Shown piece after piece: positions 25,063-40,434 of a stretch of DNA of 64,000 bases; the first letter of the stretch is position 1, and each line of letters begins with the position of its first letter. Below the pieces are notes generated by a model. It was not told where the DNA came from. It worked only from the letters and a program-made list of their open reading frames with translations, and did not search any database. A program made the translations under genes and the position numbers. The DNA lies in assembly GCF_020567425.1 (NCBI RefSeq), contig NZ_JAJCVJ010000001.1, positions 620,001 through 684,000 on the forward strand. Direction: 5' to 3'. The DNA is from Salinirubrum litoreum. GTDB lineage: Archaea; Halobacteriota; Halobacteria; Halobacteriales; Haloferacaceae.

Positions 25063-25348
25063 CGACCGACGCACTGCTCCCACACTCGGTGTTCCCGGTG
25101 TTGCCCACACAGCCGTCGTCGTTGCCAGCAGCACCTCCATCGTCGTTGCCAGCGGTGCCACCGTCGTCGTTCCCGGCAGTGCCGCCGTCGTCGTTGCCGA
25201 CCGAGAAGTTCGCGGCCGCGCCGATACCGCCACTGAACGCTTCCTGATCCGACAGCGACGCCTGGGTGTAGAAGCCGCCGGCGAAACTCAGCCCGAAGAC
25301 GAGCGCCGCGAAGGTCAATGCGGCGAGTCGCCGGTCGCTCTCGTTCAC
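25001..25348 (-). CDS. small secreted protein with GNDDGG repeats, downstream of the signal peptidase
   Basis: A 115-aa protein. It starts with a hydrophobic signal-like segment (LAALTFAALVFGLSFAGGFY) followed by SLSDQEAFSGGIGAAANF, which resembles the post-signal segment of SipW-dependent proteins (FSDxExFxxN). The middle has four GNDDGG(T/A)A units. The GTG start overlaps the stop of the signal peptidase gene (GTGA), so it is translationally coupled and is probably one of its substrates. The Cys pair near the C-terminus is followed by a low-complexity tail. Confidence 0.62.
   Translation of the reverse strand: MNESDRRLAALTFAALVFGLSFAGGFYTQASLSDQEAFSGGIGAAANFSVGNDDGGTAGNDDGGTAGNDDGGAAGNDDGCVGNTGNTECGSSASVVSPGSGVAAPTADRRPLPAR
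25112..25200 (-). repeat. 24-nt tandem repeat encoding GNDDGG units
   Basis: About three and a half units of 24 nt with plus-strand core CCGTCGTCGTTGCC(A/G), encoding the Asp-rich octapeptide repeat of the small secreted protein. Confidence 0.75.
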
Positions 25349-26658
25349 CGTTCCTCACCTCCGTCTCCCGACTCGTCCGAGAGGTCCGCGTCGTCACTCG
25401 ACGCCGGAACCGACTCGGCTGTCTCGTCTGCCACACCGGTCCCGTTCGTCGCTTCGGCCCCGTGGCCCGCCGTCTTCTCCCCGCCGGTCGCTGGCGGGGT
25501 CTCGGGCGTCTCGGGCAACCTGACGACCGGTGGTTCGACAGTCGGTAGGGACCCGTCGCCGGCACTGTCCGCTGCCGACGATCCGTCTTCGCCGCCCGGA
25601 TCCGCCGTCGACCGGGCGACTCGCGTACCTGCAGAGCCGCCGTCGTCCGGTCCCGTGTCGGTCACGGCTCCACCATCGTCATCGTCGGGGCCGTCGCGGT
25701 GGGCCACGGTCGACGACGAACTCCCGGCGTCTCCGCCGGCCGCGTAGTAGATCGCACCGCAGATCACGACCCCGGCACCCGACCCGACTGCGGCCGTCAC
25801 CGTCACGCCGGACGTCTCCTGCAGAGCGATCCACGTCGCGTACACCGCGAAGACTGACAGGATCGCCATCGAGAGTCGGAGGTCCGAGCGCGTGACGGTG
25901 TAGGTCGACGCCGTCGGTTCTGTCGACTCGTCGCCCGCGTCTGTCGCCGTCGACTCTGCGGTCGTCCGATCTGCAGTCCCCGACTCGCCGGTGACCGACT
26001 CCGCAGTCGTCACGGCCGGCGTGGTCGTCGCATCCGGCGCGGTCGGTGCGTCGGCCGCTTCAGGTGCGGCCGCGACACCTCCCTCGTCACTGGTCGTCTC
26101 GCCGCCACCGGTCCCGTCGTTGCCCGCCCGAAGGATCGACCAGGCCTCGTTGACGACCAGCAGTCCGAGCGGCAGTCCGATCAGGAGGAGGAACCCGGTC
26201 TGTGTGTTGGCGAACCGGACGACGTAGCCGATCAGCGGGATCACGTAGGTCACCTCGCCGATCACCTGTTCGGGGCGGACGGGCGCTGGATCGGGGTCCT
26301 CGTTCGCGTCGCCTTTCGTCGTGTACGCGACCCCCTCCTCGCGCGGGTTCACCTCGACGACGCGGTGGGTCGTCGGCACCTCCGCGTCGCGCTGCATGAA
26401 GGTGATCACGTCTCCGCGTTCGATCTGTCTCTGCGTCGCCTCGCTGACGACCACCACGTCACCCGGCGAGATCTCCGGTTCCATGCTCCCCGAGAGCACG
26501 ACGAAGCTGTGGTCCGCCCCCACGACCGCCGGCATCGAGTAGACGACGAACGGCGCGACGACCGCGATCAGCACGACGACCGCGAGGACGTTCACTACTC
26601 CCCCGAGCGTCGGCGACGGCAGTCGACTCGTCGTGCTGTTCGCCTCGGCTCGTGTCAC
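25345..26658 (-). CDS. signal peptidase I, SipW/ER type
   Basis: A 437-aa membrane signal peptidase. After a first membrane segment comes VVLSGSMEPEISPGDVVVV (nucleophile Ser in GSMEP), then THRVVEV with His where bacterial enzymes have Lys, and KGDANEDPDP with the Asp pair; this Ser/His/Asp set is the SipW and ER type. Two or three further hydrophobic segments lie in a long C-terminal part with acidic, Thr/Ser-rich linkers, making it much longer than a minimal enzyme of about 180-200 aa. Start at GTG 26658 with GGAGGGG upstream. It sits directly downstream of TasA-like genes and very likely processes them. Confidence 0.88.
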   Translation of the reverse strand: MTRAEANSTTSRLPSPTLGGVVNVLAVVVLIAVVAPFVVYSMPAVVGADHSFVVLSGSMEPEISPGDVVVVSEATQRQIERGDVITFMQRDAEVPTTHRVVEVNPREEGVAYTTKGDANEDPDPAPVRPEQVIGEVTYVIPLIGYVVRFANTQTGFLLLIGLPLGLLVVNEAWSILRAGNDGTGGGETTSDEGGVAAAPEAADAPTAPDATTTPAVTTAESVTGESGTADRTTAESTATDAGDESTEPTASTYTVTRSDLRLSMAILSVFAVYATWIALQETSGVTVTAAVGSGAGVVICGAIYYAAGGDAGSSSSTVAHRDGPDDDDGGAVTDTGPDDGGSAGTRVARSTADPGGEDGSSAADSAGDGSLPTVEPPVVRLPETPETPPATGGEKTAGHGAEATNGTGVADETAESVPASSDDADLSDESGDGGEER

Positions 26659-26953: not shown

Positions 26954-27721
26954 TCACGGGCCGCCTCCTGCACAGCGCTCGGCCGTGAACCCCACGCCGA
27001 AGTCGACCGAGTCGGTCTGGACCGCGTTCGCCGTCTCGGGCGCGAGCGACCACCCGACCGCGACCGACACCGACTCGCCGGGGCGGAGACACGCCGGGCC
27101 GGACGACGCCGGATCGAGGACGACGCCGCCGGAGAGTGCCGACGCGACCTCCCGAAGCGACCCCTCGGCGTCCGGCGCGACCAGTGGCTCGCCGGGTTCG
27201 CGGGTCCCGTTGCGGGTGCCGAGACCGTCGACGCCGGCGGCACCGCGGTCGTACCAGACCTCGACAGCCAGCGCGTCGGCGAGTTCCCCGCCGTCCTCGC
27301 CAGTCGTCGTGTCGCCGGCCGTCGACTCCGGTTCGTTGATCCCGTTCTCGGCGTTGCCGGTGAGCGCCAGCGAGGCGGTGACCTCGGCGGGTCCCGGTTC
27401 CCCGGTCGGCACGGTCAGTCGGATGACGAGTGCCCCGGTGTCGCCCGGCAAGAGGTTCGAGAGCGCGACTGCTGGCCCGGCGGGTGCGTCGCCGCCACCG
27501 TCCTCGAAGCCGGTGCCGGCGATACGCTCGCCGTTGTAGAGTGCGACCCACTCGACGCGGAGTGTCGGCCCGTTCTGCTGGGTGATCTCGCGCTGGTCGG
27601 TGAACGAGACGGCGTCTAATCCGAGTGCACCGCGAGCGACCGAGGCACCACCGTAGAGTCCACCGACACCGGCGACTGCGGCGAGAACTGCCCTGCGTGA
27701 CGGCGGATCGGGTGTGTCCAT
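26954..27721 (-). CDS. SipW-dependent TasA/camelysin-like secreted protein
   Basis: A 255-aa secreted protein. The N-terminus is SRRAVLAAVAGVGGLYGG, an RR-containing signal-like segment, and the C-terminal part has ANAVQTDSVDFGVGFTAERC, the motif shared by the paralogues at 28-34 kb. The middle (NLLPGDTGALVIRLTVP, NGINEPES, VEVWYDRGA) matches their KPGDFGEV, N..TEPE and WYD.G blocks. It is the most diverged member: the usual FFSDxE after the signal is replaced by FTDQRE. Its start lies 2 nt after the T-arm leader element. The signal peptidase gene follows. Confidence 0.78.
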   Translation of the reverse strand: MDTPDPPSRRAVLAAVAGVGGLYGGASVARGALGLDAVSFTDQREITQQNGPTLRVEWVALYNGERIAGTGFEDGGGDAPAGPAVALSNLLPGDTGALVIRLTVPTGEPGPAEVTASLALTGNAENGINEPESTAGDTTTGEDGGELADALAVEVWYDRGAAGVDGLGTRNGTREPGEPLVAPDAEGSLREVASALSGGVVLDPASSGPACLRPGESVSVAVGWSLAPETANAVQTDSVDFGVGFTAERCAGGGP

Positions 27722-27723
27722 AC

Positions 27724-27845
27724 GCCCACCGGCGGAGTCGAACCGCCGCCACGTGGCGCCGTCGACAGCAGGTCCGCGTGAGACCGGAGTCGTCGACGGG
27801 TCGCGTGCCCCGGGGGATGTGCCACCGGGAAGCGCCCGCGTGGGT
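27724..27845 (-). promoter_or_regulatory. tRNA-like T-arm leader element, copy A
   Basis: In the sense strand it opens with ACCCACG, has a 90-nt variable middle, then stem GGCGG, loop TTCGACT, stem CCGCC and closing GGTGGGC. The closing strand ends 2 nt before the ATG at 27721, so GGTGGG may also act as ribosome-binding site. A TATA-like ATTAAATAA (27878-27887) would start transcription near the element's 5' end. Confidence 0.75.
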
Positions 27846-27875
27846 GGTTGTTGGCTGGAAGGGAGGGCCAGCGGA

Positions 27876-27890
27876 CAGTTATTTAATCAC
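27876..27890 (-). promoter_or_regulatory. TATA-like promoter before leader copy A
   Basis: Minus-strand GTGATTAAATAACTG, about 30-40 nt upstream of the leader element, gives the gene at 26954 its own promoter in addition to any read-through. Confidence 0.4.
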
Positions 27891-28040
27891 TGGCTATCCC
27901 GCCCCCAAGATCGGAAATCGACGAGTGTCGGGCGGCCGGCGTTCCGAGACCCGCGTCGACAGCTTCCAGCTTTCGGGGACCACCTGACACGTCACGAGAA
28001 GACCACTGTCTGTGGTGCTCGCCACCCCTCTTGTGAGAAA

Positions 28041-28079
28041 CCACTGGGAGAGTCGAATTTTCGAGATGCTGACGTGGGT
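28041..28079 (-). promoter_or_regulatory. possible decayed T-arm leader element
   Basis: In the sense strand, ACCCACG and TTCGACT occur 15 nt apart, exactly as in copy E, but the T-stem is no longer complementary and the closing strand is only AGTGG. It begins 11 nt after the stop of the gene at 28091, where the operon pattern predicts an element, but no TasA-like gene follows. Could be chance. Confidence 0.35.
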
Positions 28080-28090
28080 TGTGAGTTCTC

Positions 28091-30001
28091 TCATGGCTCG
28101 AGATCGTAGATGACGCCGTCTCCGGATTCGAGTCGAATCTCAATGCCGTCGATGTCGCCGCTGTGGTCTTGGTACCAGTCACTGCCAACGGCGAACCGCA
28201 TCGTCTTCACCTGCATGTCGCGGTAGTTGATTTCGGTCGTCTCCGCGTCCGACACGTAGTCCGACCACTGGAACGAGCCCGTCGACTGGATGTCCGACAG
28301 TGTCGCGCCGGTGTCCTGGCCGTAGTAGGGCGGCGGGTTCCCGTCGCTCGTGCCGTAGTCACGTGCAGTGTCGTACCACGTCAGCTGGTTTGACCCACTC
28401 TCCGTCCGCCACGTCACCCACTCGTCTGCCGGCGCGTCTGTGTCGAACGAGTCTTCGGGGAGTGCCTGTAGGAGCTTTCCGTAGTACCCCGCGTCCGGGT
28501 TTGGGTCGCTGTCGACGGTGGTCCAGATCTCCGCGAAGAACTCCTTGCCGAGCGGCACGCCGCTGTCCCGGCGCGTCCGGTACCGGACCGACTCGATCTC
28601 ACCGACCGTGAACGGCGGGAGCGGAGCGAAGTCGAAGTAGAACGTCCCGATGTAGAACTGTTCGTAGTTCCCTGGGTCTGGTTCGTCGGAGTTCGTCTGG
28701 TCGTCGTCGTCGGTCCAGTAGCCAGATCCGACGGCACCGTCGCCGCTCGCCGACGCGAAGCCGAACTGCTCCGCCTCGTCGCTTCCGAGGGAGACTCGGC
28801 GAACGTCGCCCACGCCCGTGTTGTGCCGACACTGCTCGGTGTAGAATCCCATATCGAACGCGACCGAGTCGGTCTGGATCTCGTTCGCGTGGTCGGCCGG
28901 GAGCCACCACGCCATCGCGCAGTAGCGCGTGGTGGAGTTCGGGAAGCAGTCGTGACCTTCTGTGGTCGGGTCGGCGTCGAGCAAGAGTCCACCGGTCTCG
29001 AGAACGGAGAGTGTCTCCCTGAGTGTTCCGCGGTGGACGAGCGCCTCTTCTTGAGAGGCCATGATTCCACTGTCGGCAGTGTCATGAGTTGCAACGAGTT
29101 GTTCAGCGTCTCCTCCGTAGTTTTCTCCAGAAAGCACATTGTCGCCGTCGTCGTGCCAGATGGCGACCTGTATCTCGTCTAGTAGTTCGACCTGTGCGGT
29201 CTGGACGTTCGTGGTGAGTTCGTCCGCAGACCCGTGTTCGTCTGCGTCGTCGGCCTCTGGTTCGGTGTGGCCGTGTTCGCCGGCCTGTACTAACTGGCCC
29301 GTCATCCAGACGTGACCGGGATTGTTGAACGTGTGCATTCCAAACGTTACTTCACCCATATCCCCTGGCTTCACATCTTGCATCTGGACGAGTGGTTTGC
29401 CTCGATAGTCTCTAGTACGGTTCTTCAAATTCTCACCGTCTGAGAGATTAGCGAACTGTTTCCGAAAAGCGTCTTCCAATTGCTGGCCTGAGTAACCGTA
29501 GTGAGACGATAACGTGTTGCGGGAGTGGATAGTGTCCTGAATCCCATCATCGTCCGAGTCGGGGTATGCATCGATGGATGTGTTCGCCATGAAGTCGTCG
29601 ACACATTCCTCGGGTACCGCGATTAGTGGCTCCATAGGGACTGGGAAGCCGACGTAATCTTCCGGGACAAGAGAGGGCTCCCCCTCTGTCATCACCACCT
29701 CCCAATCGTCGACACCGTCGCCGTCGATATCGCTATCGCTGTCGTCTTCTGTTGTCTCAAGTGGACCATTCAGTGAACTGTCCGTCAGGTCGTCGTTCTC
29801 GTCGTCCGACCAGTCGGAGTAGTGTTCCTGGAAGGCCACCATCATGTCCAACTCGCCCGCGACGAGGCTGTTGTTCTGGAAGGACTCCTCGTCGCTGAAG
29901 AACGCCGTCGTGCCGAGGCCGGCACCGACCGACCCGATACCCACGGCTCCGAGGCTTCCGAGGACTTTGCGTCGCGTCAAGCGGAGACCATCGTCTGTCA
30001 T
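28091..30001 (-). CDS. SipW-dependent TasA-like secreted protein with extra C-terminal domain
   Basis: A 636-aa surface protein. The signal region reads LTRRKVLGSLGAVGIGSVG then TTAFFSDEESFQNN, which combines an RR motif with the SipW-type FSDxExFxNN site. The TasA-like body contains DVKPGDMGEVTFGMHTFNNP, EPEADD and DHANEIQTDSVAFDMGF plus TEQCRHN near residue 400. The last 230 residues are an added domain with no family I recognise (FYFDFAPLPPF, DIDGIEIRLESG). Start at ATG 30001, 23 nt downstream of element B. Probably a fibre or matrix subunit carrying a displayed domain. Confidence 0.8.
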   Translation of the reverse strand: MTDDGLRLTRRKVLGSLGAVGIGSVGAGLGTTAFFSDEESFQNNSLVAGELDMMVAFQEHYSDWSDDENDDLTDSSLNGPLETTEDDSDSDIDGDGVDDWEVVMTEGEPSLVPEDYVGFPVPMEPLIAVPEECVDDFMANTSIDAYPDSDDDGIQDTIHSRNTLSSHYGYSGQQLEDAFRKQFANLSDGENLKNRTRDYRGKPLVQMQDVKPGDMGEVTFGMHTFNNPGHVWMTGQLVQAGEHGHTEPEADDADEHGSADELTTNVQTAQVELLDEIQVAIWHDDGDNVLSGENYGGDAEQLVATHDTADSGIMASQEEALVHRGTLRETLSVLETGGLLLDADPTTEGHDCFPNSTTRYCAMAWWLPADHANEIQTDSVAFDMGFYTEQCRHNTGVGDVRRVSLGSDEAEQFGFASASGDGAVGSGYWTDDDDQTNSDEPDPGNYEQFYIGTFYFDFAPLPPFTVGEIESVRYRTRRDSGVPLGKEFFAEIWTTVDSDPNPDAGYYGKLLQALPEDSFDTDAPADEWVTWRTESGSNQLTWYDTARDYGTSDGNPPPYYGQDTGATLSDIQSTGSFQWSDYVSDAETTEINYRDMQVKTMRFAVGSDWYQDHSGDIDGIEIRLESGDGVIYDLEP

Positions 30002-30024
30002 GTTCGCCAACCCCTCGCGGGAGG

Positions 30025-30069
30025 ACCCACCGGCGGAGTCGAACCGCCGAACGTGTGGCCAGCGTGGGT
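30025..30069 (-). promoter_or_regulatory. tRNA-like T-arm leader element, copy B
   Basis: A short copy of 45 nt: ACCCACG, 14 nt, GGCGG-TTCGACT-CCGCC, GGTGGGT. It starts 37 nt after the stop of the gene at 30107. A mini-hairpin (CCTC-CCGC-GAGG) and GAGGGG follow before the ATG at 30001. Confidence 0.75.
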
Positions 30070-30106
30070 CGGGTGGTCGGAGGGTAGTGCCTGGTCGAGC
30101 GGTCGA

Positions 30107-31804
30107 TCAGCCGTTCTCGGGAGCCTGCGGCGTGCCGCCGTCGTTGTGGCGGCACTGCTCGGTGTAGAAGCCGAGGTCGAAGCTCACGGAGTCCGTCTGG
30201 ATCTCGTTGGCGTGATCGACCGGGAGCCACCACTCGAAGCCGATGTAGGCGGTCGTCGAGTTGGGGAAGCAATCACGGTCCGGGTCACCCACTGGACCGC
30301 CGCCACCGTTGCCGTCGTCACCGTCGACCGGGCAGCAGACGTCGATGTTACTGATTCCTTGACCAGTGGGCGTGGTGAACGTAACTCCGTTTAGGATAAC
30401 AGGCTGGTCAAAGACGTAGATGTTCTCGCCTTCGTTGCCGCCTTTCACGCTGACAACTCTAACAGGGTTATCCGTCGAGAGCGTGATCGTATCAAGATCA
30501 CTGTCACCTCTCTGATCGCTGAGTGAGTCGACGGTGAGACCGGCACACGAACTGTAGTCCATACCCGCCTCGAGCATCTCTGCCTCGATGGCCGTTCCGA
30601 CGAGACTCATCCCGTCGAAGAGCAGATTATCATAGTCTCCACAGTTGAGATTCTTAGGGGCAGGATTGCCAGAGGCGCCGCCGGTCACGAACGACTTGAA
30701 CGGCTCGTCCTCGGTACTCACGTACAGTCTGTAGCTGTCGCCGTCGCCGTCGGTATCGCCATCAGCGTCAGCGAGGTCGTCCAGTACAGGGGCTGTATCA
30801 TTACTGCTCCCGCTAGTAGCCGTAGAGGTGGTAGCCGTGACAGGGTTGGCGTCAAGCGGGAACGGGTTGTTCTGTAACTGGAGGAGGACACCACCGAGAG
30901 TACCCATCTGGATCGGCGACTCCCCAGGCTGGAGGTAGTTGTCCCCCTCGTCTTCATCCTTGTCACCGAAGTCGGCACCGTAGCCGTTTTCGCCGGTGTC
31001 GTACCAGAACGCGACTTGAATCTCGCTGAGCAGTTCGACGTCTGCCGGCGTGGTAGAGTCGGGGTCGCCGTCCTCGTCGGGGTCATTCTGTTCGGGTTCG
31101 GTCAAACCGTTCTCGCTTGCGGAGACGAGGTCACCGGTCAACCAGACGTACCCGGGGTTCCCGCACACGTGGAAAGAAAACGTGACTTCACCGAAATCAC
31201 CTGGTTTCACGTCCGCGATCTGGATCAGTGGGTCGCCAGCTGCAGTGGTCTGGGGGTTCGGGTCACCTCCGGCAGTGTAGCCATCGCCATCATCAGTTGC
31301 GACCGCTCCGGTACGGAACGGATGGCTGAGAACACCGTTTCCACCATCGGTATCAGCCGGCAAATTACAGATGTCGCTGTCGTTCGCCGGATCAGTTTTG
31401 ACTGCATCATAGTCGTCCGCTGTGACGTTTGCCGCGTCCAGAGACGGATCTGCGTCAGGGAACGCCTCAATGACGGTGTTCCGCAGGAACTGGTCCGGGT
31501 CGCTGACGAACACCGACTGATTCGTAGGGTCAGCCGCCGATGGAAAGCCGGTCAGTCCGTCACCAGGTTCCATCGCTACCGTGTCGATGCCCTCGGCTTC
31601 GTCGTCAGACCAGTCGGAGTAGTGCTCTTGCCAGTCGACCTTGAGGTCCAACTCCCCGGCTGTTAGGGTGTTGTCCTGGAAGTCTTCTCTGTCACTGAAG
31701 TACGCAGTCGTGCCGAGTCCCGCACCTGCCGACGCGATCCCGATGGTGCCCAGACCGGCGAGGACTTCGCGTCGTGAGATGTCGAACCCGCTGTTGTTTG
31801 CCAT
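30107..31804 (-). CDS. SipW-dependent TasA-like secreted protein with inserted domain
   Basis: A 565-aa paralogue. The signal is ISRREVLAGLGTIGIASAG followed by TTAYFSDREDFQDNTLTAGE. The body has DVKPGDFGEVTFSFHVCGNP, GLTEPEQNDPDEDG, VAFWYDTGENG and, near the C-terminus, AYIGFEWWLPVDHANEIQTD and TEQCRHNDGG. About 150 residues are inserted between the FPLDANP and CFPNSTTAY blocks, with VRVVSVKGGNEGENIYVFDQ and DVCCPVDG; a related insert is seen in the paralogue at 37224. Secreted, probably cleaved by the local SipW-type peptidase. Confidence 0.82.
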   Translation of the reverse strand: MANNSGFDISRREVLAGLGTIGIASAGAGLGTTAYFSDREDFQDNTLTAGELDLKVDWQEHYSDWSDDEAEGIDTVAMEPGDGLTGFPSAADPTNQSVFVSDPDQFLRNTVIEAFPDADPSLDAANVTADDYDAVKTDPANDSDICNLPADTDGGNGVLSHPFRTGAVATDDGDGYTAGGDPNPQTTAAGDPLIQIADVKPGDFGEVTFSFHVCGNPGYVWLTGDLVSASENGLTEPEQNDPDEDGDPDSTTPADVELLSEIQVAFWYDTGENGYGADFGDKDEDEGDNYLQPGESPIQMGTLGGVLLQLQNNPFPLDANPVTATTSTATSGSSNDTAPVLDDLADADGDTDGDGDSYRLYVSTEDEPFKSFVTGGASGNPAPKNLNCGDYDNLLFDGMSLVGTAIEAEMLEAGMDYSSCAGLTVDSLSDQRGDSDLDTITLSTDNPVRVVSVKGGNEGENIYVFDQPVILNGVTFTTPTGQGISNIDVCCPVDGDDGNGGGGPVGDPDRDCFPNSTTAYIGFEWWLPVDHANEIQTDSVSFDLGFYTEQCRHNDGGTPQAPENG

Positions 31805-31821
31805 AGGGTTGTCACCCGAGG

Positions 31822-31867
31822 ACCCACCGGCGGAATCGAACCGCCGAGGTGTGCAGCCGGCGTGGGT
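31822..31867 (-). promoter_or_regulatory. tRNA-like T-arm leader element, copy C
   Basis: 46 nt: ACCCACG, 15 nt, GGCGG-TTCGATT-CCGCC, GGTGGGT. It is the only copy with a T-loop change (C to T at the sixth position). It starts 45 nt after the stop of the gene at 31913. A GGGT-GACA-ACCC hairpin lies between it and the ATG at 31804. Confidence 0.75.
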
Positions 31868-31912
31868 CGGTTTACCGTCTCTTGAAACGGTGTGGTCGGT
31901 GTTCGATACTTC

Positions 31913-34186
31913 TTACTCTGCGGACACGTCGACTGCCCAGCCCTCGTCTCCACCGGGGAAGTCACCCTGCCTGGATACGGAGAGTTCCCCGCTCAGCTCG
32001 AAGCTCTCCGAGCCGTCGAGCGCCGTATCGAGAACAAGGTAGTTGAATGCCCGGCCGCCGCCGTCGTCGTCGTTCGTCGCTTGGACGCTCGTCGGGCCGT
32101 TGATCGTCTGACTGTTCCCGTCGACTGACAGCGACACGTTCTCGGCGTTGACGGTGGCTTCGTCGGCTTTCGTCTGTACGAGCAACCGCCCGTCGAAGGC
32201 GCTGGCAGCCGTGGTCCGCGAAACCGTGGTCGCGCCGACGTTGAACTCCGTGGTACCGTCGCTCGAGTCGTAGCTCAGGCTCCACGGAACGTTGGATAGC
32301 GGGAAGCTCCAAGACGCGTCGGTCGTGTCCTCGGACGGAGTGTCACCCGATCCGATGCCGACCTCCCACCCGCCATTGCCGTTCCGGGCACGTGAAGTGA
32401 TCGCGTTCGGAGTGTCGAAGTCTTCACCATCGTCCCCGTATCCATTGTTCTGGTTTTCCGACTCAGATAGTTTCCCGAACCCGGTCCCGGTCCGTGATGG
32501 GATCTCCGGATCTCCAACACCGCCACCCTGGCCGCTCCCGTTGTTGTGGCGGCACTGCTCGGTGTAGAAGCCGAGGTCGAACTGCACAGAGTCGGTCTGG
32601 ATCTCGTTGGCGTGGTCCAGCGGAAGCCACCAGTCGAACCCGATGTAGTGTGGGGTCGACGCAGAGTAGCAGTTCCGGGCGTCCGCGCTCCCGCCACCTT
32701 CTGGTGCCGGGACGTCCCCATCGAGTGGGAAGCCGAGGCTCCCATTCTCGGGGTCGAACTCGTACTGGTTACAGAAGTCTTCGAGCGTGCCACGGAAGAA
32801 CTCCTGTTCGCCACCTTCGATGACTTCGAAATTGTTCTCGATCTCATCGATGGCATCGGCGATGCTGGTGTCGACGGCGCCCTGATCCGTGCCGCTCTGG
32901 ACCTGGATCACCTCGTCGCTGATGTCCGTGTGGAACTGCTGCTGTGCGGGACTGAGGTTGCCGAAGGCGACGATCTTGATCTCGACGCCAGCGTTCTTCA
33001 GGTTGTCCGCCGCCGCCTGAACGTTGGCCCGTTCGGTCGCGTCCGAGGGTCGGCTGTCCCCGTTGGTGTAGACGACGATCACGTTGTCGTCGTTTTCGTC
33101 GTCGGTGTCGTCTGTCACGAGGTCCGCCAGAGCGTTCTCAAGGCCCTCAACGAAATCCTCCGCGCCGAGAGTGCCACCACCAGCGCCTGCCGTGTTGCCG
33201 AGCGCAGTGTCTACGTCGTCGGTGTCCGTACTATCTGCCAGTAGCTCCGACGCGCCGGCCTCGGCCATCACTGCGACTGTCTGCTCAACCGTGGTGCCGA
33301 GACCGTCGAGGTAGGCGTTCGTCGCTTCTCCGACTTGGATCGCCGCGTCGTCCTTCTCGAACTCCGTCCCCTCCTCAACCAAGTTCTCCTCCATTGTCCC
33401 GGAGGTATCGATCAAGTGATAGACGTCGATGGCCTGCGCCCCAGGCTCGTAGATGTTGTCGCCGTCGTCGTACCAGGCGCGTACCTCGATCTGCTCGGCG
33501 AGTTCGGGCTCCCCGCCGGGGCCGTCCTCGTCCGGATCGTCCAGTTCTGGCTCGGTGAAGCCGTTCTCGGCCTCCGAGAAGTTGTTGCAGTAGAACCAGA
33601 CGAACCCTGGATTGTTACACAGGTGGAAGCTCAGGGTGACTTCTCCGAAGTCACCTGGCTTGACGTCGTCGAGAGCGACGACCGGCTCTCCACGGTACTG
33701 CTCCGTGCGGAGGTCCGAGTCGAGGAGGTCTGGGGTGTCCGCGTCCTCCTCACAGATGTCGAAGCCCTCCGGAAAGTCCTGAATACCGTCGTCGTTCGTG
33801 TCCGGGTACGCGTCGATGGACGTGGCGTCCTTGAACTCCGCGACGGTGTTGTTCGGGAACCTGAGCGATATCGGTTCCGCCAGGTCGTCGGCGTTCGGGC
33901 CGGGTGGGAGGTAGATGTCCGCCTCGTCTTGCGGGACACCCATCTCAACCTCCAGGTCGGCCTCGGTGCTTCCGTCACCACCTCGGTTGTTGATCCAGTC
34001 GGCGTAGTGTTCCTCGAAGTCGACCTTGAGGTCGAGCGACCCGGCTGTCAAGCTGTTGCCCTCGAAGTCTTCTCGGTCGCTGAAGAATGCTGTCGTGCCC
34101 AGTCCAGCCCCCGCGGACGCGACACCTACTGTGCCGAGTGCCGCGAGCGCCTTCCGCCGCGTCAGTTCGATTGGTTGGTCTGACAT
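31913..34186 (-). CDS. SipW-dependent TasA-like secreted protein with inserted vWA domain
   Basis: A 757-aa protein, the largest of the set. The signal is LTRRKALAALGTVGVASAG followed by TTAFFSDREDFEGNSLTAGS. The TasA-like body is split: DVKPGDFGEVTLSFHLCNNP and VRAWYDDGDNIYEPGAQ, then about 190 residues of von Willebrand A fold with a MIDAS start DVYHLIDTSGTMEEN, VIVVYTNGDSRPSD and VEIKIVAFGNLSP, then FFRGTLEDFC and DHANEIQTDSVQFDLGF. A C-terminal region (ASWSFPLSNVPWSLSYD) may be a further small beta domain. The vWA domain suggests metal-dependent adhesion. Start at ATG 34186. Confidence 0.82.
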   Translation of the reverse strand: MSDQPIELTRRKALAALGTVGVASAGAGLGTTAFFSDREDFEGNSLTAGSLDLKVDFEEHYADWINNRGGDGSTEADLEVEMGVPQDEADIYLPPGPNADDLAEPISLRFPNNTVAEFKDATSIDAYPDTNDDGIQDFPEGFDICEEDADTPDLLDSDLRTEQYRGEPVVALDDVKPGDFGEVTLSFHLCNNPGFVWFYCNNFSEAENGFTEPELDDPDEDGPGGEPELAEQIEVRAWYDDGDNIYEPGAQAIDVYHLIDTSGTMEENLVEEGTEFEKDDAAIQVGEATNAYLDGLGTTVEQTVAVMAEAGASELLADSTDTDDVDTALGNTAGAGGGTLGAEDFVEGLENALADLVTDDTDDENDDNVIVVYTNGDSRPSDATERANVQAAADNLKNAGVEIKIVAFGNLSPAQQQFHTDISDEVIQVQSGTDQGAVDTSIADAIDEIENNFEVIEGGEQEFFRGTLEDFCNQYEFDPENGSLGFPLDGDVPAPEGGGSADARNCYSASTPHYIGFDWWLPLDHANEIQTDSVQFDLGFYTEQCRHNNGSGQGGGVGDPEIPSRTGTGFGKLSESENQNNGYGDDGEDFDTPNAITSRARNGNGGWEVGIGSGDTPSEDTTDASWSFPLSNVPWSLSYDSSDGTTEFNVGATTVSRTTAASAFDGRLLVQTKADEATVNAENVSLSVDGNSQTINGPTSVQATNDDDGGGRAFNYLVLDTALDGSESFELSGELSVSRQGDFPGGDEGWAVDVSAE

Positions 34187-34210
34187 GGTCAGGTATCCCC
34201 GGTAGGGGAC

Positions 34211-34314
34211 GCCCACCGACGGAGTCGAACCGTCCTCCACGGGGTCCGAATCCAACCGGCAGGCGGTCGACGTGACCGCCTGCCCGTCAGCGGAACCGGG
34301 AGTCCGAAGTGGGT
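34211..34314 (-). promoter_or_regulatory. tRNA-like T-arm leader element, copy D
   Basis: 104 nt: ACCCAC, a long middle with an 11-bp hairpin (GGCAGGCGGTC-ACGTC-GACCGCCTGCC), then GACGG-TTCGACT-CCGTC and GGTGGGC. The T-stem differs from copies A-C by a paired change (G-C to A-T), keeping the stem. A CCCC-TACC-GGGG hairpin precedes the ATG at 34186. Confidence 0.78.
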
Positions 34315-34370
34315 CCTGACGGCGGCGCACCCCACGCCACCGACACTCACCCCTGACAGGGGAGCCTCCA

Positions 34371-34380
34371 TAACTAATTA
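34371..34380 (-). promoter_or_regulatory. TATA-like promoter for the 34-28 kb TasA-like operon
   Basis: Minus-strand TAATTAGTTA, part of the ATTAGTTAT motif also found upstream of both winged-helix regulators at 34727 and 40435. It gives a leader of roughly 160 nt that contains element D. Confidence 0.45.
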
Positions 34381-34512
34381 CCGAGTACTGCCTGAAAACA
34401 ACTGAATGAGGCCCTGAAACACCGGAATCAGGTGTTCTGAACGCGGCGATGAGGTATCGTCGGGCCCGCCCCCCGCGACTCAACGTGCCGATCCGTCGAC
34501 GCCCGCCGAGCG

Positions 34513-34559
34513 TAATTCGCGATGCAGTCGTGGAAAGGCGGTGTTAATTCGCGAGGCAG
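34513..34559 (+). promoter_or_regulatory. direct repeats TAATTCGCGA-GCAG in the regulator upstream region
   Basis: TAATTCGCGATGCAG (34513-34527) and TAATTCGCGAGGCAG (34545-34559) are near-identical 15-mers 32 nt apart, about three helical turns. They lie between the divergent TasA-like operon and the winged-helix regulator gene and look like paired protein-binding sites. Confidence 0.45.
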
Positions 34560-34658
34560 CGTGCCGCACGACGGCGATTTCGGCCGGTTCGCGGGTACAC
34601 TGCCCCGTCTGTCCCTCGCGACTCCCGAAAGGCCGGGACTTCAGCGCCAGACGCACCG

Positions 34659-34689
34659 ATTAGTTATCCGGGGGCACGTACTTTATTCC
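34659..34689 (+). promoter_or_regulatory. promoter region of the winged-helix regulator at 34727
   Basis: GATTAGTTATCCG at 34659 carries the motif shared within the locus, and TACTTTATTCC at 34679-34689 is the likely TATA box, about 43 nt before the ATG. Confidence 0.4.
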
Positions 34690-34726
34690 GGCAAGCCGAC
34701 AGCGAATCGGCGACACGGGGGAACTC

Positions 34727-35257
34727 ATGGGGATACTCAGGAAACGGAATCTCATCGACACGGACATCCACGACATCCTGTGCAACCAGCGGCGTCGTCA
34801 CGCGCTGAACCACCTCAGACGGCGTCGTGAGACGGTATCGCTCGCCGAACTGGCCGACGCCGTCGCCGAACAGGAGACCGGGCAGGCATCACCGCCCGCC
34901 GACCTCCGCCAGAGCGTCTACAACTCGCTCCACCAGACGCACCTGCCGCGACTCGACGCCGAGGGTGTCATCGAGTACGACCCCGACGGGAAGGAGATCA
35001 GACTCACGGAGTCGGCCCGCGAGGTGGAGGTCTACATGGAGGTGTTCACGCGCTACGGGGTCACCTGGGCGGAGTACTACCGCCTGCTCGGGACGGTCGG
35101 CCTGTGTGTCGTCCTCCTCGCGACACTGGAGATGGGACCGTTCGCGCTCGTGCCGCCCGTCGTCGCGGTCACGTTCTTCCTCGTCCTGCTGGCCGTATCG
35201 ACCGTCTACCAGCTGGTGACCCGACGACACGTCACCCTCCGACAGCTCTTCGGGTGA
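34727..35257 (+). CDS. DUF7344-type winged-helix protein with two C-terminal membrane segments
   Basis: A 176-aa predicted membrane-bound regulator. Residues 1-110 form a winged helix with NQRRRHALNHLRRRR, the conserved AELADAVAEQE, RQSVYNSLHQTHLPRL and EGVIEYDPDGKEIRLTE. Residues 120-170 contain two hydrophobic segments and the tail VTRRHVTLRQLFG. It is nearly identical in layout to the protein at 40435. It is divergent from the TasA-like operon at 34186, and a tiny membrane protein gene starts 2 nt after its stop. Likely controls the surface-protein genes; the signal is unknown. Confidence 0.8.
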   Translation: MGILRKRNLIDTDIHDILCNQRRRHALNHLRRRRETVSLAELADAVAEQETGQASPPADLRQSVYNSLHQTHLPRLDAEGVIEYDPDGKEIRLTESAREVEVYMEVFTRYGVTWAEYYRLLGTVGLCVVLLATLEMGPFALVPPVVAVTFFLVLLAVSTVYQLVTRRHVTLRQLFG

Positions 35258-35258
35258 G

Positions 35259-35414
35259 ATGTGCACCCTGTTCGTGGTGCGTCTGTTACTGCTGCCCGGG
35301 ATGCGTACCGGGGCGCCAAAACGGAACGCACTGGTGTTGCTGCTGTACCTCCTCGGCTGTTTCGTGATCGGGAGTACACTCCTCGATTGGTTGGGGTTCA
35401 TGGAGGTATTCTGA
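35259..35414 (+). CDS. 51-aa membrane protein following the winged-helix regulator
   Basis: Starts at ATG 35259 (MCTLFVVRLLLLPGM), immediately after the regulator stop. The core PGMRTGAPKRNALVLLLYLL matches PGFRPGTPKRNALVLLLYSL of the small gene at 40980, which holds the same place behind the second regulator. One membrane segment follows a short basic stretch. The true start may be the internal Met at residue 15, where similarity begins. Conservation of sequence and position argues that it is real and works with the regulator. Confidence 0.65.
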   Translation: MCTLFVVRLLLLPGMRTGAPKRNALVLLLYLLGCFVIGSTLLDWLGFMEVF

Positions 35415-36352
35415 CGAGCCCCGTGGTGCAGACGATCGAGATGGGATGCGACCCCGAACGACGAATCTCCTCGCGAGGGAGTGCTGTAGTCTCGAGAACG
35501 GGTCATTTCCCCCGAGTCGGCGTGCCACTCGAAGCCGTCCAGACACGTCTCACCACGTCGTGATCCCGAACCGTGTCCGGAGTCGATCTACGGTCCTCGT
35601 CAGAGGCACGATCGGCGAGATTCTCACACACGCCGAGCTCCCGATCTACGACCGATGTGCTGTCGAGAGTACCTAAGGAGCAATCTCAGAGCGTTCACAC
35701 CCTCCTCGTCGCTCCGGCAGTAGTGAGCACAGAGCCGAGTGTGTGCCTACAGCGGCGCGGCAGATGAGTGAACGGTGTGATCGGAAGCGACAGCTGAGAC
35801 GACATAATCGCCCGACTTCGATGACCTCCGGACGACGTATCGAGTGCGATTTTGCCCTCGTCCCTGCAGGAGAGGGCCGACGCTGCACGGCTCGAATCTT
35901 CACACTCGGGTGCCGTCTAGCGGTTTCCGGATCTGGAATCTCCGTTGAACCCGAGTCGGGCCGAACAGCCACCCCCCTAGCCACCACCAAACCGCCAGAC
36001 GAGAGCGCCCCGACGGGCGTAGACTCCGCGCAGATTCCCTTCGTCGCAAGCGAGCACGTCTTTTCACACACACACCCTCACAGGACCCGCACAGGCCTCA
36101 CTACCGGGGATTTACCCGGATGTGAACCTCACGAGCGATGGCGAGCCACCTTCTCGACGAGTCTGCACGCTCGAACCGGTGATTCGTCGTGTGTGAACAC
36201 CGGGGTTGCCCGAGGCCATCTGTTGCTGCGCAGTGGATCAGGCTCTCGGGGGGAGATGTCGTCCGTGGCGGGTCGAAACGTGATCACGCCGTTCTCGAAT
36301 CACGTGTCGGTAGGTTTCTCGGTGTTCGTTGCAGAACTCACCTGGACGGCGG
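35415..36352. other. 938-nt region without a supported gene
   Basis: Open frames here are short, lack acidic haloarchaeal composition and show no motif. Several CACACACAC and GTGTGTGAA stretches and TTTTCACACACACACC near 36060 are visible, but no clear terminator or repeat copy. It separates the regulator pair from the end of the second TasA-like operon and may be decayed sequence. Confidence 0.5.
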
Positions 36353-37135
36353 TCACCGTCCACCAGACTCCGCGCCGATCGGACTCTCGACGCGCTCGCC
36401 GTCGGTGTGACGCGACTGGAGTGCCCCGACCTCGAAGCTGAAGTCGACGGAGTCCGTCTGGACTTCGTTGCCGACGTCGTTCGGCAACCGCCACTCGACT
36501 CTGATGGCCTGTTCGTCGTCCTCGGTGTACTCGTCGTCACCGTCAGGATCGCAGTCAGTCACGAGTCGTCCGCCGTCGGCGGTCGGCATCGCCGTCGTCA
36601 GCAGGTCGTACAGCGAGAGCGGCGTCTCGACCGAATCGACGAAGCCCTGGACGGCCGTGATCTCGACGTGCTGAGCGAGTTCGCCGCCGCCGTCGATGTC
36701 GTCGTCTGGCGCGTAGTCGTCGTCCTCCCCGTCGGCATCGGCTTCCGGTTCGGTCACAGAGTTCTCGTCGTTCGCCACAAGCGTCCCGCCGGCGAAGACG
36801 TACGCCGGGTTCCCCTCGACGGACGGGACGAACTCGAAGTGACCGCTGTCGCCCGGTTTGAGGTCCTCGACGACGTAGGCACCGGAGACACTCGCTCCGT
36901 CTACGGTCACGTTGGTCTTCACGGAGGAGTCGGTATCGGCACCGTCCTGGGATACCGCCCCGTCGAAGGTCACCGCCAGATTCAGATCGCCGGCCTGGAC
37001 GGCGTTGTCAGTAAACTCCTCGCTGTCGGTGAGGTACGCGACGGTCCCCAGTCCGGCCCCGGCCGCCGAGACGCCGACCGTGCCGAGTACCGTGAGCACT
37101 CGCCGACGGGTGAGTCTGATTCGTCGGTCTGTCAT
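36353..37135 (-). CDS. SipW-dependent TasA-like secreted protein, short form
   Basis: A 260-aa minimal member. The signal LTRRRVLTVLGTVGVSAAG is followed by TVAYLTDSEEFTDNAVQAGD. The body has DLKPGDSGHFEFVPSVEGNP, NSVTEPEADADGEDD and RLPNDVGNEVQTDSVDFSFE, with RH replacing the CRHN seen in the other group. It closes the operon that starts with the gene at 38986. No inserted domain, so it may be a basic fibre subunit. Confidence 0.8.
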   Translation of the reverse strand: MTDRRIRLTRRRVLTVLGTVGVSAAGAGLGTVAYLTDSEEFTDNAVQAGDLNLAVTFDGAVSQDGADTDSSVKTNVTVDGASVSGAYVVEDLKPGDSGHFEFVPSVEGNPAYVFAGGTLVANDENSVTEPEADADGEDDDYAPDDDIDGGGELAQHVEITAVQGFVDSVETPLSLYDLLTTAMPTADGGRLVTDCDPDGDDEYTEDDEQAIRVEWRLPNDVGNEVQTDSVDFSFEVGALQSRHTDGERVESPIGAESGGR

Positions 37136-37152
37136 CCTGTGTGTGACGCGAG

Positions 37153-37193
37153 ACCCACCGACGGAGTCGAACCGTCGTGACGCCGGCGTGGGT
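37153..37193 (-). promoter_or_regulatory. tRNA-like T-arm leader element, copy E
   Basis: The shortest copy, 41 nt: ACCCACG, 10 nt, GACGG-TTCGACT-CCGTC, GGTGGGT. It has the same covaried T-stem as copy D and starts 30 nt after the stop of the gene at 37224. Confidence 0.78.
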
Positions 37194-37223
37194 GAACGGG
37201 GGAGAGGGAACTGCGGCGGTGTC

Positions 37224-38885
37224 TCAGACGGTCGGGTTGTCGTTGTTGCGGGCCTGTTCGGCCTCGAAACCGAGGTTGAACTTCATCGAGTCCGTCTGAA
37301 TCTCGTTGCCGACGTCGGGATCGATGTACCAGGCGAATCCGATGTAAGCAGTCGTAGAGTTCACAAACGGTTCACGCTCGTCGGCGGCTGGATTCGCAGG
37401 CTGGGGCTCGTAGCAGATGAGGAGGTAGCTCAGAGCCTTATTTTTTGGTGCCGCGAACGTGACATTGGTAAGGGTGGCTCCGTCGGGTTCCTCGTAGACT
37501 TTGAATCCAGGACCACTGTTGCCTCCGCCTTGGGAGGATCCACCCTTGGGCGTCACTGCGGTGATCGGTTTGTTGGTGCTGATCTCTAATTCGAGCACTT
37601 CACCAGTCTGGCTGTCGCGTGTGACAGAATCAACCGTGATAGTGATGCCACCAGTGCTGGCGTCCGGACCGATAGTATCGCCGGCTTCTAAACTCTCGAG
37701 CTCTGAACCCTCTATCTTTGCTACTTCGGAGTATTCCGGATTGATGTCTTCGCAGTCCGGTTGTCCTTTGTAATCGATATCAGTCGGTTCCAGGACGTTA
37801 CTGAAATCACTAATATCATCAATCTCCTTATTGCTCGATTCGGGAACGACCTCGAAGAAGTCGGTGGAGAGGTCTCCGTTGAGTGGTATTCCACCCTCTA
37901 GCGTGTCGAGAACCATCCCAAGGTTCCCGCGAAGCACCTCGTTGGCGTTCGCGATTATGGTCTCATTCTCCTGTAGAATGTTGTCCCCCTCGGTCGGATC
38001 ACTGCTGGGTTCCGCTCCCGCATCCTCGAACTCATTGTCTTCTCCCGCATCGTACCAGATAACTGCAGATGCCTCGTCGAGCAACTCGCCGTTCATGTCG
38101 TCTGACGCGTTTCCGGTCCCATCAACTTCCTCTTCGGGTTCGGTGAGATCGTTCTCAGCGTTCTCCAGTAATTCGCCCGAGATGGAAATGTAAGCAGGGT
38201 TACCGCAGTTGTGAAGACTAAACGTCACCTCACCGAAATCACCAGGTTTTGCGTCAGAGATGTCTACCAGCGGGTCACCCTCGTCAGTCGTCTGAGGATT
38301 TGGTCCACTGCCGACTTGTCCCTGTGTCCGACTAGATGATGAAAGGATGTCTCCATTGTCGGGGACAAGTGGCTGGAGATACGCACACTCCGCACTGTCG
38401 TCGCCTTGAGCTCCATTGACGGGAATGTCGTCCTGAATTCCATCGTCCGCATCCGAGGAGCTAATATTGCTGTAATCGGTGCCATCGACGGTGATTTCTC
38501 TACCGTCTGTATCAGGGAATGAATCGATGGCCGACGCATCCATGTACGCCTTCACCGGATCCGGAAGTTCGGAGTAGGCGGCGTTGACTGCGACCAGAGG
38601 ATTGTCCTGCGATGGGATACCGACCTCGTCAGTCTCGAGATTAGCGTCGTCGGGGTCCACGTATCGGACGTATTCGAGATCATCCGCCGGTGCGGCTCCC
38701 GAATAGTGTTCTTCAAAGTCGATCACCAAGTCGAGTTCACCGGCTTGGACGATGTTGTTCCCGAAGCTCTCCGTATCGTTGAAGAACGCCGTCGTCCCGA
38801 GACCCGCCCCCACTGAGGCGACTCCGACGGTGCCGACGGCACCGAGTATTTTCCGTCTCGTGATGTCGAGTCCGTTGTCTGTCAT
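37224..38885 (-). CDS. SipW-dependent TasA-like secreted protein with inserted domain, second group
   Basis: A 553-aa paralogue. The signal ITRRKILGAVGTVGVASVG precedes TTAFFNDTESFGNNIVQAGE. The body has DAKPGDFGEVTFSLHNCGNP, NDLTEPEEEVDG, AVIWYDAGEDNE and IGFAWYIDPDVGNEIQTDS with EQARNN at the end. Between PLNGDLS and FVNSTTAY is an insert of about 150 residues with PITAVTPKGGSSQ and LTNVTFAAPKNKAL, related to that of the paralogue at 30107. Base composition is noticeably lower in GC than in flanking housekeeping genes. Start ATG at 38885. Confidence 0.82.
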   Translation of the reverse strand: MTDNGLDITRRKILGAVGTVGVASVGAGLGTTAFFNDTESFGNNIVQAGELDLVIDFEEHYSGAAPADDLEYVRYVDPDDANLETDEVGIPSQDNPLVAVNAAYSELPDPVKAYMDASAIDSFPDTDGREITVDGTDYSNISSSDADDGIQDDIPVNGAQGDDSAECAYLQPLVPDNGDILSSSSRTQGQVGSGPNPQTTDEGDPLVDISDAKPGDFGEVTFSLHNCGNPAYISISGELLENAENDLTEPEEEVDGTGNASDDMNGELLDEASAVIWYDAGEDNEFEDAGAEPSSDPTEGDNILQENETIIANANEVLRGNLGMVLDTLEGGIPLNGDLSTDFFEVVPESSNKEIDDISDFSNVLEPTDIDYKGQPDCEDINPEYSEVAKIEGSELESLEAGDTIGPDASTGGITITVDSVTRDSQTGEVLELEISTNKPITAVTPKGGSSQGGGNSGPGFKVYEEPDGATLTNVTFAAPKNKALSYLLICYEPQPANPAADEREPFVNSTTAYIGFAWYIDPDVGNEIQTDSMKFNLGFEAEQARNNDNPTV

Positions 38886-38909
38886 TGGTTCTCCCCCTCG
38901 TTCGGGGAA

Positions 38910-38960
38910 ACCCACCGGCGGAGTCGAACCGCCACCACGTTCGCGGGCACCAGCGTGGGT
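38910..38960 (-). promoter_or_regulatory. tRNA-like T-arm leader element, copy F
   Basis: 51 nt: ACCCACG, 20 nt, GGCGG-TTCGACT-CCGCC, GGTGGGT. It starts 25 nt after the stop of the gene at 38986, the tightest spacing of the set. A hairpin CCCC-GAACGA-GGGG, with GGGGGAGA next to it, precedes the ATG at 38885. Confidence 0.78.
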
Positions 38961-38985
38961 GAAATCCAGATGATTGGGGGTATGT

Positions 38986-39867
38986 TCAGCTATCGACCGC
39001 GTCAAACGGGTTGCTACTGTTGTTCCGAGCCTGTGCTGCCTCGAACTCAAGGTCAAAGCTCACAGAGTCTCCCTGTATGATGTTCCCAACTCCATCCGGA
39101 ATCTCGAATTTGGCGTAGTAGCAGGCGACCCCGGTGAACGAACTGCCGCCCCTGAAGTCGATTCCACCGTCGGTGAGGTCATTGAGAACTTTGTTCAGCG
39201 ACCCCGAGAGTCTTGAGATTGAGGGATCGATTTCCCCGGCTTGACTGTCGTACCCACCTCCGACGGTCACCTCAATGGCATTGTCGAGTTCACCGTCCCC
39301 AGAGATGCCGTCGTTGTCACCGGGCGAAGACTGTTCCAGATCTATTCCGTCATCCTTCGTACCGTAATCGTTGCCCGAACTGTCGTCATCGCCTTCGGGT
39401 TCCGTGATGTCGTTCTCGGGGTCTGCCACGTTCGATGCTGTGGTCCGTACGTACGCCGGATTCCCGAGGACATTGGCACAGACCTTGAGGACGAAGGAGT
39501 CACCCGGCTTCACGTCACCAAGCTGGAATCCGACTGCCGCATCGCCGTCCACGACGACCGCACCCTTGCTAGTCGTCTCCGGGTAGTTACTGACGTTGCC
39601 GAACGGGTTAGTATCTTCGTCGGTGTCGAACGGCACATTATTGCCGGACGCAACGACATTGGTGTTGTTCACGCCACCGAAATCGTAGTCAATGACGTCA
39701 ACAGACGCTTGAAGATTCAGCGTCCCTGCCTGCACGCTGTTGTTTTCGAAGCTTTCCGTGTCGTTGAAGTACGCGGTCGTACCGACGCCTGCGCCTGCGG
39801 ACGCGACACCGATTGTGCCGAGTGCCGCGAGCGCCTTGCGCCGCGAGATGTTGAACTCCTGTGGCAT
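38986..39867 (-). CDS. SipW-dependent TasA-like secreted protein, first gene of second operon
   Basis: A 293-aa member. The signal ISRRKALAALGTIGVASAG is followed by TTAYFNDTESFENNSVQAGT. The body includes DVKPGDSFVLKVCANVLGNP, NDITEPEGDDDSSGND and KFEIPDGVGNIIQGDSVSF with EAAQARNN. It has no large insert. It is the first gene of the operon 39867-36353, preceded by element G and a shared AT-rich promoter motif, and divergent from the second winged-helix regulator at 40435. Confidence 0.82.
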   Translation of the reverse strand: MPQEFNISRRKALAALGTIGVASAGAGVGTTAYFNDTESFENNSVQAGTLNLQASVDVIDYDFGGVNNTNVVASGNNVPFDTDEDTNPFGNVSNYPETTSKGAVVVDGDAAVGFQLGDVKPGDSFVLKVCANVLGNPAYVRTTASNVADPENDITEPEGDDDSSGNDYGTKDDGIDLEQSSPGDNDGISGDGELDNAIEVTVGGGYDSQAGEIDPSISRLSGSLNKVLNDLTDGGIDFRGGSSFTGVACYYAKFEIPDGVGNIIQGDSVSFDLEFEAAQARNNSSNPFDAVDS

Positions 39868-39892
39868 GGTTCGATCGCCCCCTTCCGGGGAG

Positions 39893-39991
39893 TCCCACCG
39901 GCGGAGTCGAACCGCCGTCGGACGTCCACTCCCCCCAGCGGGTGGACGTCCGCCCCCTCGCGGACCGCGAGGGGGTTGGACCGACGTGGGT
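39893..39991 (-). promoter_or_regulatory. tRNA-like T-arm leader element, copy G (cloverleaf-like)
   Basis: 99 nt and the most tRNA-like: ACCCAC pairs with GTGGG, then a 10-bp hairpin (CCCCCTCGCG-GTC-CGCGAGGGGG), an 11-bp hairpin (CGGACGTCCAC...GTGGACGTCCG, 12-nt loop) and the T-arm GGCGG-TTCGACT-CCGCC. There is no D-arm consensus or 7-nt anticodon loop, so it is not a tRNA gene. A CCCC-GGAA-GGGG hairpin follows before the ATG at 39867. Confidence 0.8.
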
Positions 39992-40380: not shown

Positions 40381-40434
40381 TGGATGGTCGCTACTGGTTG
40401 CCGTGCCGACACGACGTCGGCCGACTGGACGACA

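Follow-up and report, generated by a model that had tools for sequence, protein, structure and literature searches.

A tRNA-like element in the leaders of SipW-type surface-protein genes of Salinirubrum litoreum shares the architecture of the pre-5S rRNA t-element and recurs in phages

Seven genes for secreted proteins described as TasA-like lie in a window of 64,000 nucleotides (nt) from the haloarchaeon Salinirubrum litoreum (NZ_JAJCVJ010000001.1, 620,001-684,000; positions given below are those of the window), and each of them is preceded by a short sequence with the appearance of a tRNA T-arm. What might a portion of a tRNA be doing in front of genes for surface proteins? The original prediction, made from this DNA alone, took the sequences for tRNA mimics that could attract RNase P and tRNase Z and thereby have the operon cut into single mRNAs. 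All seven copies (designated A to G; Table 1) are present where that prediction had placed them, on the minus strand and in sense orientation with the genes. Each begins with ACCCAC and a tract with GG at positions 10-11, continues with a variable middle and GRCGG-TTCGAYT-CCGYC, and closes with GGTGGG and a T, C or A. Read as a structure, this is an acceptor-like stem of 6 base pairs (bp; ACCCAC/GTGGGN), a D-loop-like YGG, the variable middle and a canonical tRNA T-arm, after which the gene follows. The T-loop is canonical in all seven copies, the variant TTCGATT being confined to copy C, and the T-stem is indeed GGCGG/CCGCC in A, B, C, F and G and GACGG/CCGTC in D and E. None of the window copies has an encoded CCA behind it, as is expected of a substrate of RNase Z. 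The short distances between copies B, C, E and F and the preceding stop codons had likewise been reported correctly.

The core composed of the T-arm and GGTGGG occurs ten times in the 4.06-Mb genome, seven times in the window and three times elsewhere, in all three cases ahead of the same kind of gene. Since the reversed control yielded no match and the core is also present in 28 of 60 relatives, its recurrence is not due to chance. We built a covariance model from 14 mostly compact copies, and its use in a search of 392 Halobacteriales genomes, an approach that had been proposed along with the prediction, detected the element in 166 of them and revealed covariation across the homologous loci, the absence of which had been named as a ground for rejecting the prediction. 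In 138 distinct haloarchaeal copies, 96.5% of the cells are paired, and both partners have changed in 10 of the 12 base pairs. Such double changes account for 104 cells, compared with 26.6 in shuffles, and none of 500 shuffles reached 104; when the alignment was slid by one to three columns as a control, the pairing signal collapsed. The leader element is a real RNA.

The alignment also corrects the proposed geometry. The T-arm stands as described, but in place of a 5-bp T-stem closed by GGTGGG there are two stems of 6 bp each: a C in front of GRCGG pairs with a G behind CCGYC in 125 of the 138 copies, so that the G that might be counted as a seventh acceptor position belongs to the T-stem. 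The resulting helix of 6+6 bp comprises twelve stacked pairs, equal to the 7+5 pairs of a tRNA. The middle, which is not conserved in sequence, ranges in length from about 10 to 90 nt. In the long copies D and G, its additional hairpins (z about -4; Table 1) occupy the place of the anticodon and variable arms; the two that had been noticed in copy G fold with about 10 and 11 bp. In the YGG motif, the GG is invariant and occupies the position from which G18-G19 of a D-loop would contact the T-loop; motif and T-loop probably make an elbow contact. A conserved D-stem of 2 bp around YGG, visible by eye in many haloarchaeal copies and not in the phage copies described below, is not claimed. Bacterial Y RNA (YrlA) and the tRNA-like structures of plant viruses are other non-tRNA RNAs that imitate the tRNA elbow; they differ from the window elements in architecture and in location.

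We then asked where the element resides in haloarchaeal genomes. A SipW-type N-terminus follows within 450 nt on the same strand in 207 of 247 distinct copies; the profile for this N-terminus derives from a strict subset of these genes, and the fair comparison is therefore the divergent upstream control, which gave 1. Six of the 247 copies precede 5S rRNA. In one haloarchaeon, the element (minus strand) stands before a gene resembling a SipW-type signal peptidase itself. The start codon is mostly found 19-29 nt past the element, and 139 of the 160 leaders tested have a hairpin of at least 4 bp close to where the element ends (26.6 expected). This hairpin usually has the form TCCCC-GGGGA, begins 1-3 nt past most elements and ends about 6 nt ahead of the start codon. 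In the window, such hairpins are present after copies B, C, D, F and G, and none was found after copy E.

A model (R2) that was trained on phage and haloarchaeal copies, with no rRNA among them, recovers the pre-5S leader of the S. litoreum genome with 45 bits (E 1.3e-6). This locus reads ACCGAC-GACGGCGTA-CTACGG-TTCGATT-CCGTAG-GTCGGC-G and leads directly into TTAAGGCGGCCACAGCGG, the 5S rRNA. The same model matches four of the window copies with 34-52 bits and A, D and G weakly or in part, and another model (R1) also matches pre-5S copies in other genomes. A pattern search found the arrangement before 5S rRNA in 30 of 99 genomes with identical spacing in 45 of 45 matches, most of which display the YGG anatomy (ACCGAC-NN(N)-YGG-...-T-arm-GTCGG).

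The pre-5S t-element of Haloferax volcanii is cut by tRNase Z behind the element, which gives the 5' end of 5S rRNA (PMC4326828, PMC3296008), and t-elements placed around a CRISPR RNA (crRNA) were used to set it free in vivo by means of RNase P and tRNase Z, with 5'-phosphate and 3'-OH ends (PMC4326828, PMC3296008, PMC4946936). For the t-element upstream of haloarchaeal 5S rRNA, PMC4326828 cites Hoelzle et al. (2008, RNA) and Hoelzle et al. (2012, Biochimie). The genome of S. litoreum contains an RNase Z gene (349 bits) and a gene for archaeal RNase P RNA. It also contains a second, partial RNase Z homologue (C4:163094-163528; 109 bits), located about 4.5 kb from an element copy (J) on the same small contig. 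Because a model that had seen no rRNA finds the pre-5S element, and the counterpart of this element in H. volcanii is a known processing signal, the TasA leaders are most economically read as t-elements on mRNAs. The strong covariation and the architecture shared with the pre-5S leader also bear out the prediction's view of the element as a tRNA mimic.

The two kinds of element have in common an acceptor-like stem, a D-loop-like YGG, a 6-bp T-stem, a TTCGANT loop and the lack of an anticodon arm, and one model finds both. The 5S element is located directly 5' of the RNA it serves, and the window elements probably have the corresponding place, with which their position and tight spacing agree. 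However, the window elements precede protein genes instead of rRNA, are followed by a leader of 19-29 nt with a hairpin, usually have the acceptor CCCAC/GTGGG where the 5S element has CCGAC/GTCGG, and occur several times per operon; they are known here from sequence, whereas cleavage of the H. volcanii 5S element is published. The synthetic t-element cassettes used for crRNA release in Haloferax (PMC4326828, PMC4946936) are likewise tRNA-like RNase P/tRNase Z sites within a transcript, but they are engineered, whereas the window elements are natural and reside on mRNAs. No Rfam family reached its gathering score at the elements: there was no such match in the window, and in the phage loci only true tRNAs were called.

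We propose, with a probability of about 0.72, that each copy is a t-element in the transcript that is most likely read as a pre-tRNA and sets a defined, hairpin-capped 5' end of the mRNA. The T-loop of the acceptor/T-arm minihelix of 6+6 bp probably docks on the D-loop-like YGG and creates a tRNA elbow; an anticodon arm is absent, or unrelated hairpins stand in its place. The cut by tRNase Z would fall one nucleotide past the acceptor stem, in the way that haloarchaeal 5S rRNA receives its 5' end from this enzyme, and RNase P would probably cut on the 5' side of the element. The product mRNA would start 1-3 nt ahead of the small G+C hairpin, with about 6 nt left between this hairpin and the start codon, and each surface-protein mRNA would in this way gain a defined, capped 5' end of its own, parted from the upstream cistron. 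The hairpin may protect the mRNA from decay from the 5' end. At copy A, the cut would create an essentially leaderless mRNA, the element being so close to the ATG (Table 1).

Several observations weigh against this proposal. Copies D, G and A precede genes that are first in their operon or separately promoted, so that no operon cutting is needed there: D and G lead operons, and a TATA-like box (GATTAAATAA) lies 41 nt upstream of copy A, which for this reason probably has its own promoter. Splitting of operons can hence not be the sole role. The pre-5S element speaks for the enzymes that the prediction had named, but the function it had given them was too narrow; the setting of an mRNA 5' end fits all seven copies. 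The compact copies are unremarkable in single-sequence folding (z -0.4 to -1.0), and the evidence for an RNA is the covariation. Behind the acceptor, the nucleotide is mostly C or T, where a purine discriminator would be usual. Of the 14 SipW-type genes in the S. litoreum genome, six (Table 1) lack a closely matching element; the leader is therefore not obligatory for SipW-type proteins. Finally, a 2012 study in Biochimie reportedly described further tRNA-like structures of H. volcanii, selected ones of which are said to have remained uncut in vitro. Resemblance to a tRNA is thus no guarantee of cutting, and we have kept our confidence near 0.7.

We first assumed that the element was restricted to haloarchaea and to TasA genes, and dropped this assumption after its exact core had turned up in an AT-rich region of Pediococcus acidilactici. 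The exact 21-base core is present in 103 stretches of 84,980 species genomes; the 80 stretches that were listed are all haloarchaeal except for this one region, which is integrase-linked, prophage-like and contains two copies. In P. acidilactici DSM 20284, these copies (region positions 3806-3848 and 5154-5196) lie near genes for a repressor, an ImmA/IrrE-like protein and an integrase. The chromosome has four copies in all, two of them outside the region, and matches were found in 12 of the 100 relatives searched (Pediococcus included). Contamination as the source of the Pediococcus copies is ruled out by the 30-37% G+C content around them and by compensatory changes.

In the viral genomes of IMG/VR, the form CCCAC...GTGGG occurs in 55 stretches and the form CCCGC...GCGGG in 27, with no match for the reversed control of the former. 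With three pairs of the acceptor and four of the T-stem left free, the pattern had 72 unique matches, whose distribution is bimodal: all seven pairs are formed in 31 of them, for which the chance expectation is about 0.1%, some of the rest being pieces of real tRNAs or chance matches. Scanned for the structure, the fetched phage contigs contain 152 distinct elements, against none in reversed sequence; about 15 of the 152 have the length of an ordinary tRNA. These counts and those that follow come from contigs fetched by pattern and are hence not unbiased frequencies. One alignment included phage rows that had been picked for their pairing, and its covariation is for that reason not used as proof. 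As many as seven copies stand on one contig, and their stem sequences are unrelated. Where the end of the upstream reading frame could be placed, the elements are mostly found 5-14 nt past the stop codon (mode 7-10), and a hairpin of at least 5 bp follows directly in 51 of 151 cases (6.5 expected; 9 in the upstream control). The downstream genes include those for a helicase, a primase, an Erf-like annealing protein and proteins without known function.

In Gordonia phage VanLee (NC_073474.1), nine intercistronic gaps within 6 kb consist of stop codon, element, hairpin, Shine-Dalgarno sequence and ATG. Nearly every intercistronic gap of about 100 nt in this phage has the element, the hairpin and a shared GCACCCAAC ahead of the Shine-Dalgarno sequence, and related gaps are present in phages ObLaDi, Cafasso, Aleemily and Morgana. 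On the IMG/VR contig 3300036770_006414 (8689-9904), four successive genes are arranged as stop codon, 8-10 nt, element, 15-16 nt and ATG; their leaders share GCTAAA...GAT and have no evident Shine-Dalgarno sequence. Such arrangements suggest a 'tRNA punctuation' of phage mRNAs. In animal mitochondria, tRNAs between genes mark the sites at which RNase P and RNase Z cut polycistronic RNA. Those are full, functional tRNAs, whereas the element described here, in archaea and phages, is a mimic of about 42 nt that lacks an anticodon arm and CCA. We consider it more likely than not that prokaryotic polycistronic RNA is widely punctuated by this mimic, ahead of surface-protein mRNAs in haloarchaea and between genes in many phages, where host tRNA-processing enzymes would cut out separate hairpin-capped mRNAs. 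The literature searched, mainly open-access papers, yielded no account of elements like these in mRNA leaders or phages.

The main rival to processing, in line with the alternatives that the prediction had also offered (binding of a T-loop protein, control of translation), is a role of the intact element in the mRNA, where a ribosome or a protein that binds the T-loop or elbow would control translation or stability, and where the hairpin would mask or present the ribosome-binding site. The very tight spacing from hairpin to start codon, the G-rich 3' arm of the hairpin about 6 nt ahead of the ATG, and the phage elements placed directly before start codons, some without an evident Shine-Dalgarno sequence, are all in keeping with it. 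However, the same architecture stands before 5S rRNA, where there is no start codon and where the H. volcanii counterpart is cleaved (PMC4326828), and the letters of acceptor and T-stem vary freely in the phages, as expected if a tRNA enzyme reads the shape; we therefore regard an intact role as rather unlikely. We give much less credit to a leader with which surface-protein genes would sense a signal, be it a switch of the riboswitch or T-box type or autoregulation through a protein that binds tRNA. The concentration of the haloarchaeal copies on one kind of gene would agree with this, as would an alternative fold of copy E in which part of the 5' strand could pair with the T-stem, but the element also precedes 5S rRNA and unrelated phage genes, often several per phage, and the middle is variable in length and has no conserved sequence. 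Integrases commonly use tRNA 3' ends as their sites, and the element is carried by tandem gene families. An attachment site or a T-arm-derived recombination repeat left by gene duplication is nevertheless very improbable: a DNA-level element is contradicted by the compensatory changes in both stems, the sense-only placement, the fixed distance to the start codon and the occurrence, in one and the same phage, of stems unrelated in sequence. Degenerate or pseudo-tRNA genes, for which the canonical T-arm and a weak tRNA-Sec-like Rfam match of copy G (25.4 bits, below the cut-off of 47) could be cited, can practically be dismissed given the conserved pairing, the missing anticodon arm, the fixed genic position and the fact that neither ARAGORN nor Rfam calls a tRNA at the elements.

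Of the seven genes that follow the window copies (Table 1), B-G match TIGR04088, the SipW-dependent signal peptide, and three of them match camelysin/Peptidase_M73 at E < 0.001; as a correction to the prediction, gene A encodes a related-looking secreted twin-Arg protein with no TIGR04088 match. With SipW-type signal peptides in six of seven genes and a SipW-like peptidase, the region has the composition of a SipW/TasA cluster. Next to the first gene of the D-C-B-A operon and to that of the G-F-E operon lie divergent genes for two similar small proteins, 34727-35257 (+) and 40384-40962 (+), which begin RKRNLIDTDIHDIL and RKERDLVDTDIHAIL; the former protein matches DUF7344. The two may be operon-specific regulators.

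Table 1. Elements, genes and hairpins of the S. litoreum window, and SipW-type genes of the genome that lack a close match
Feature	Position	Strand	Remarks
Element A	27724..27845	-	122 nt, long middle; gene A ATG 2 nt downstream; TATA-like box upstream
Element B	30025..30069	-	compact, 45 nt; 37 nt past gene C stop; R2 46.3 bits
Element C	31822..31867	-	compact, 46 nt; 45 nt past gene D stop; R2 43 bits
Element D	34211..34314	-	104 nt, extra 11-bp hairpin in middle; leader of first gene of D-C-B-A operon; z -4.2
Element E	37153..37193	-	compact, 41 nt; 30 nt past gene F stop; R2 51.7 bits
Element F	38910..38960	-	compact, 51 nt; 25 nt past gene G stop; R2 34.3 bits
Element G	39893..39991	-	99 nt, two extra hairpins; leader of first gene of G-F-E operon; z -4.0
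Gene A	26954..27721	-	255-aa secreted twin-Arg/TasA-like protein; no family match
Gene B	28091..30001	-	SipW-type signal peptide protein, start ATG 30001; TIGR04088
Gene C	30107..31804	-	SipW-type; Peptidase_M73/camelysin-like N-terminus
Gene D	31913..34186	-	SipW-type signal combined with von Willebrand A (VWA) and choice-of-anchor W domains
Gene E	36353..37135	-	SipW-type
Gene F	37224..38885	-	SipW-type, camelysin-like
Gene G	38986..39867	-	SipW-type, camelysin-like
SipW-like signal peptidase I	25345..26658	-	TIGR02228; follows gene A; not preceded by a tRNA-like element
Hairpin CCTC-CCGC-GAGG	30013..30024	-	directly 3' of element B
Hairpin GGGT-GACA-ACCC	31806..31817	-	3' of element C, ahead of ATG 31804
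Hairpin TCCCC-TACC-GGGGA	34196..34209	-	3' of element D
Hairpin CCCC-GAACGA-GGGG	38894..38907	-	3' of element F
Hairpin CCCC-GGAA-GGGG	39879..39890	-	3' of element G
SipW-type genes without close-match element	C1:147702, C1:230148, C1:1695229, C2:784779, C2:1397418, C4:156516

On the reading proposed here, the leader element is of a known kind, the t-element, in a new role and with a range far wider than in the literature searched, and the phage elements constitute a class that is absent from Rfam and undescribed in that literature. If our reading is true, haloarchaea and many phages would use the enzymes of tRNA processing as a general system for the processing of mRNAs, a prokaryotic counterpart of mitochondrial tRNA punctuation. 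The signal would reside in structure only and would be both searchable and engineerable. The long-open question of which RNases shape archaeal and phage mRNAs would become directly testable. For the haloarchaea themselves, it would explain how tandem surface-protein genes of one operon obtain independent mRNAs with defined 5' ends.

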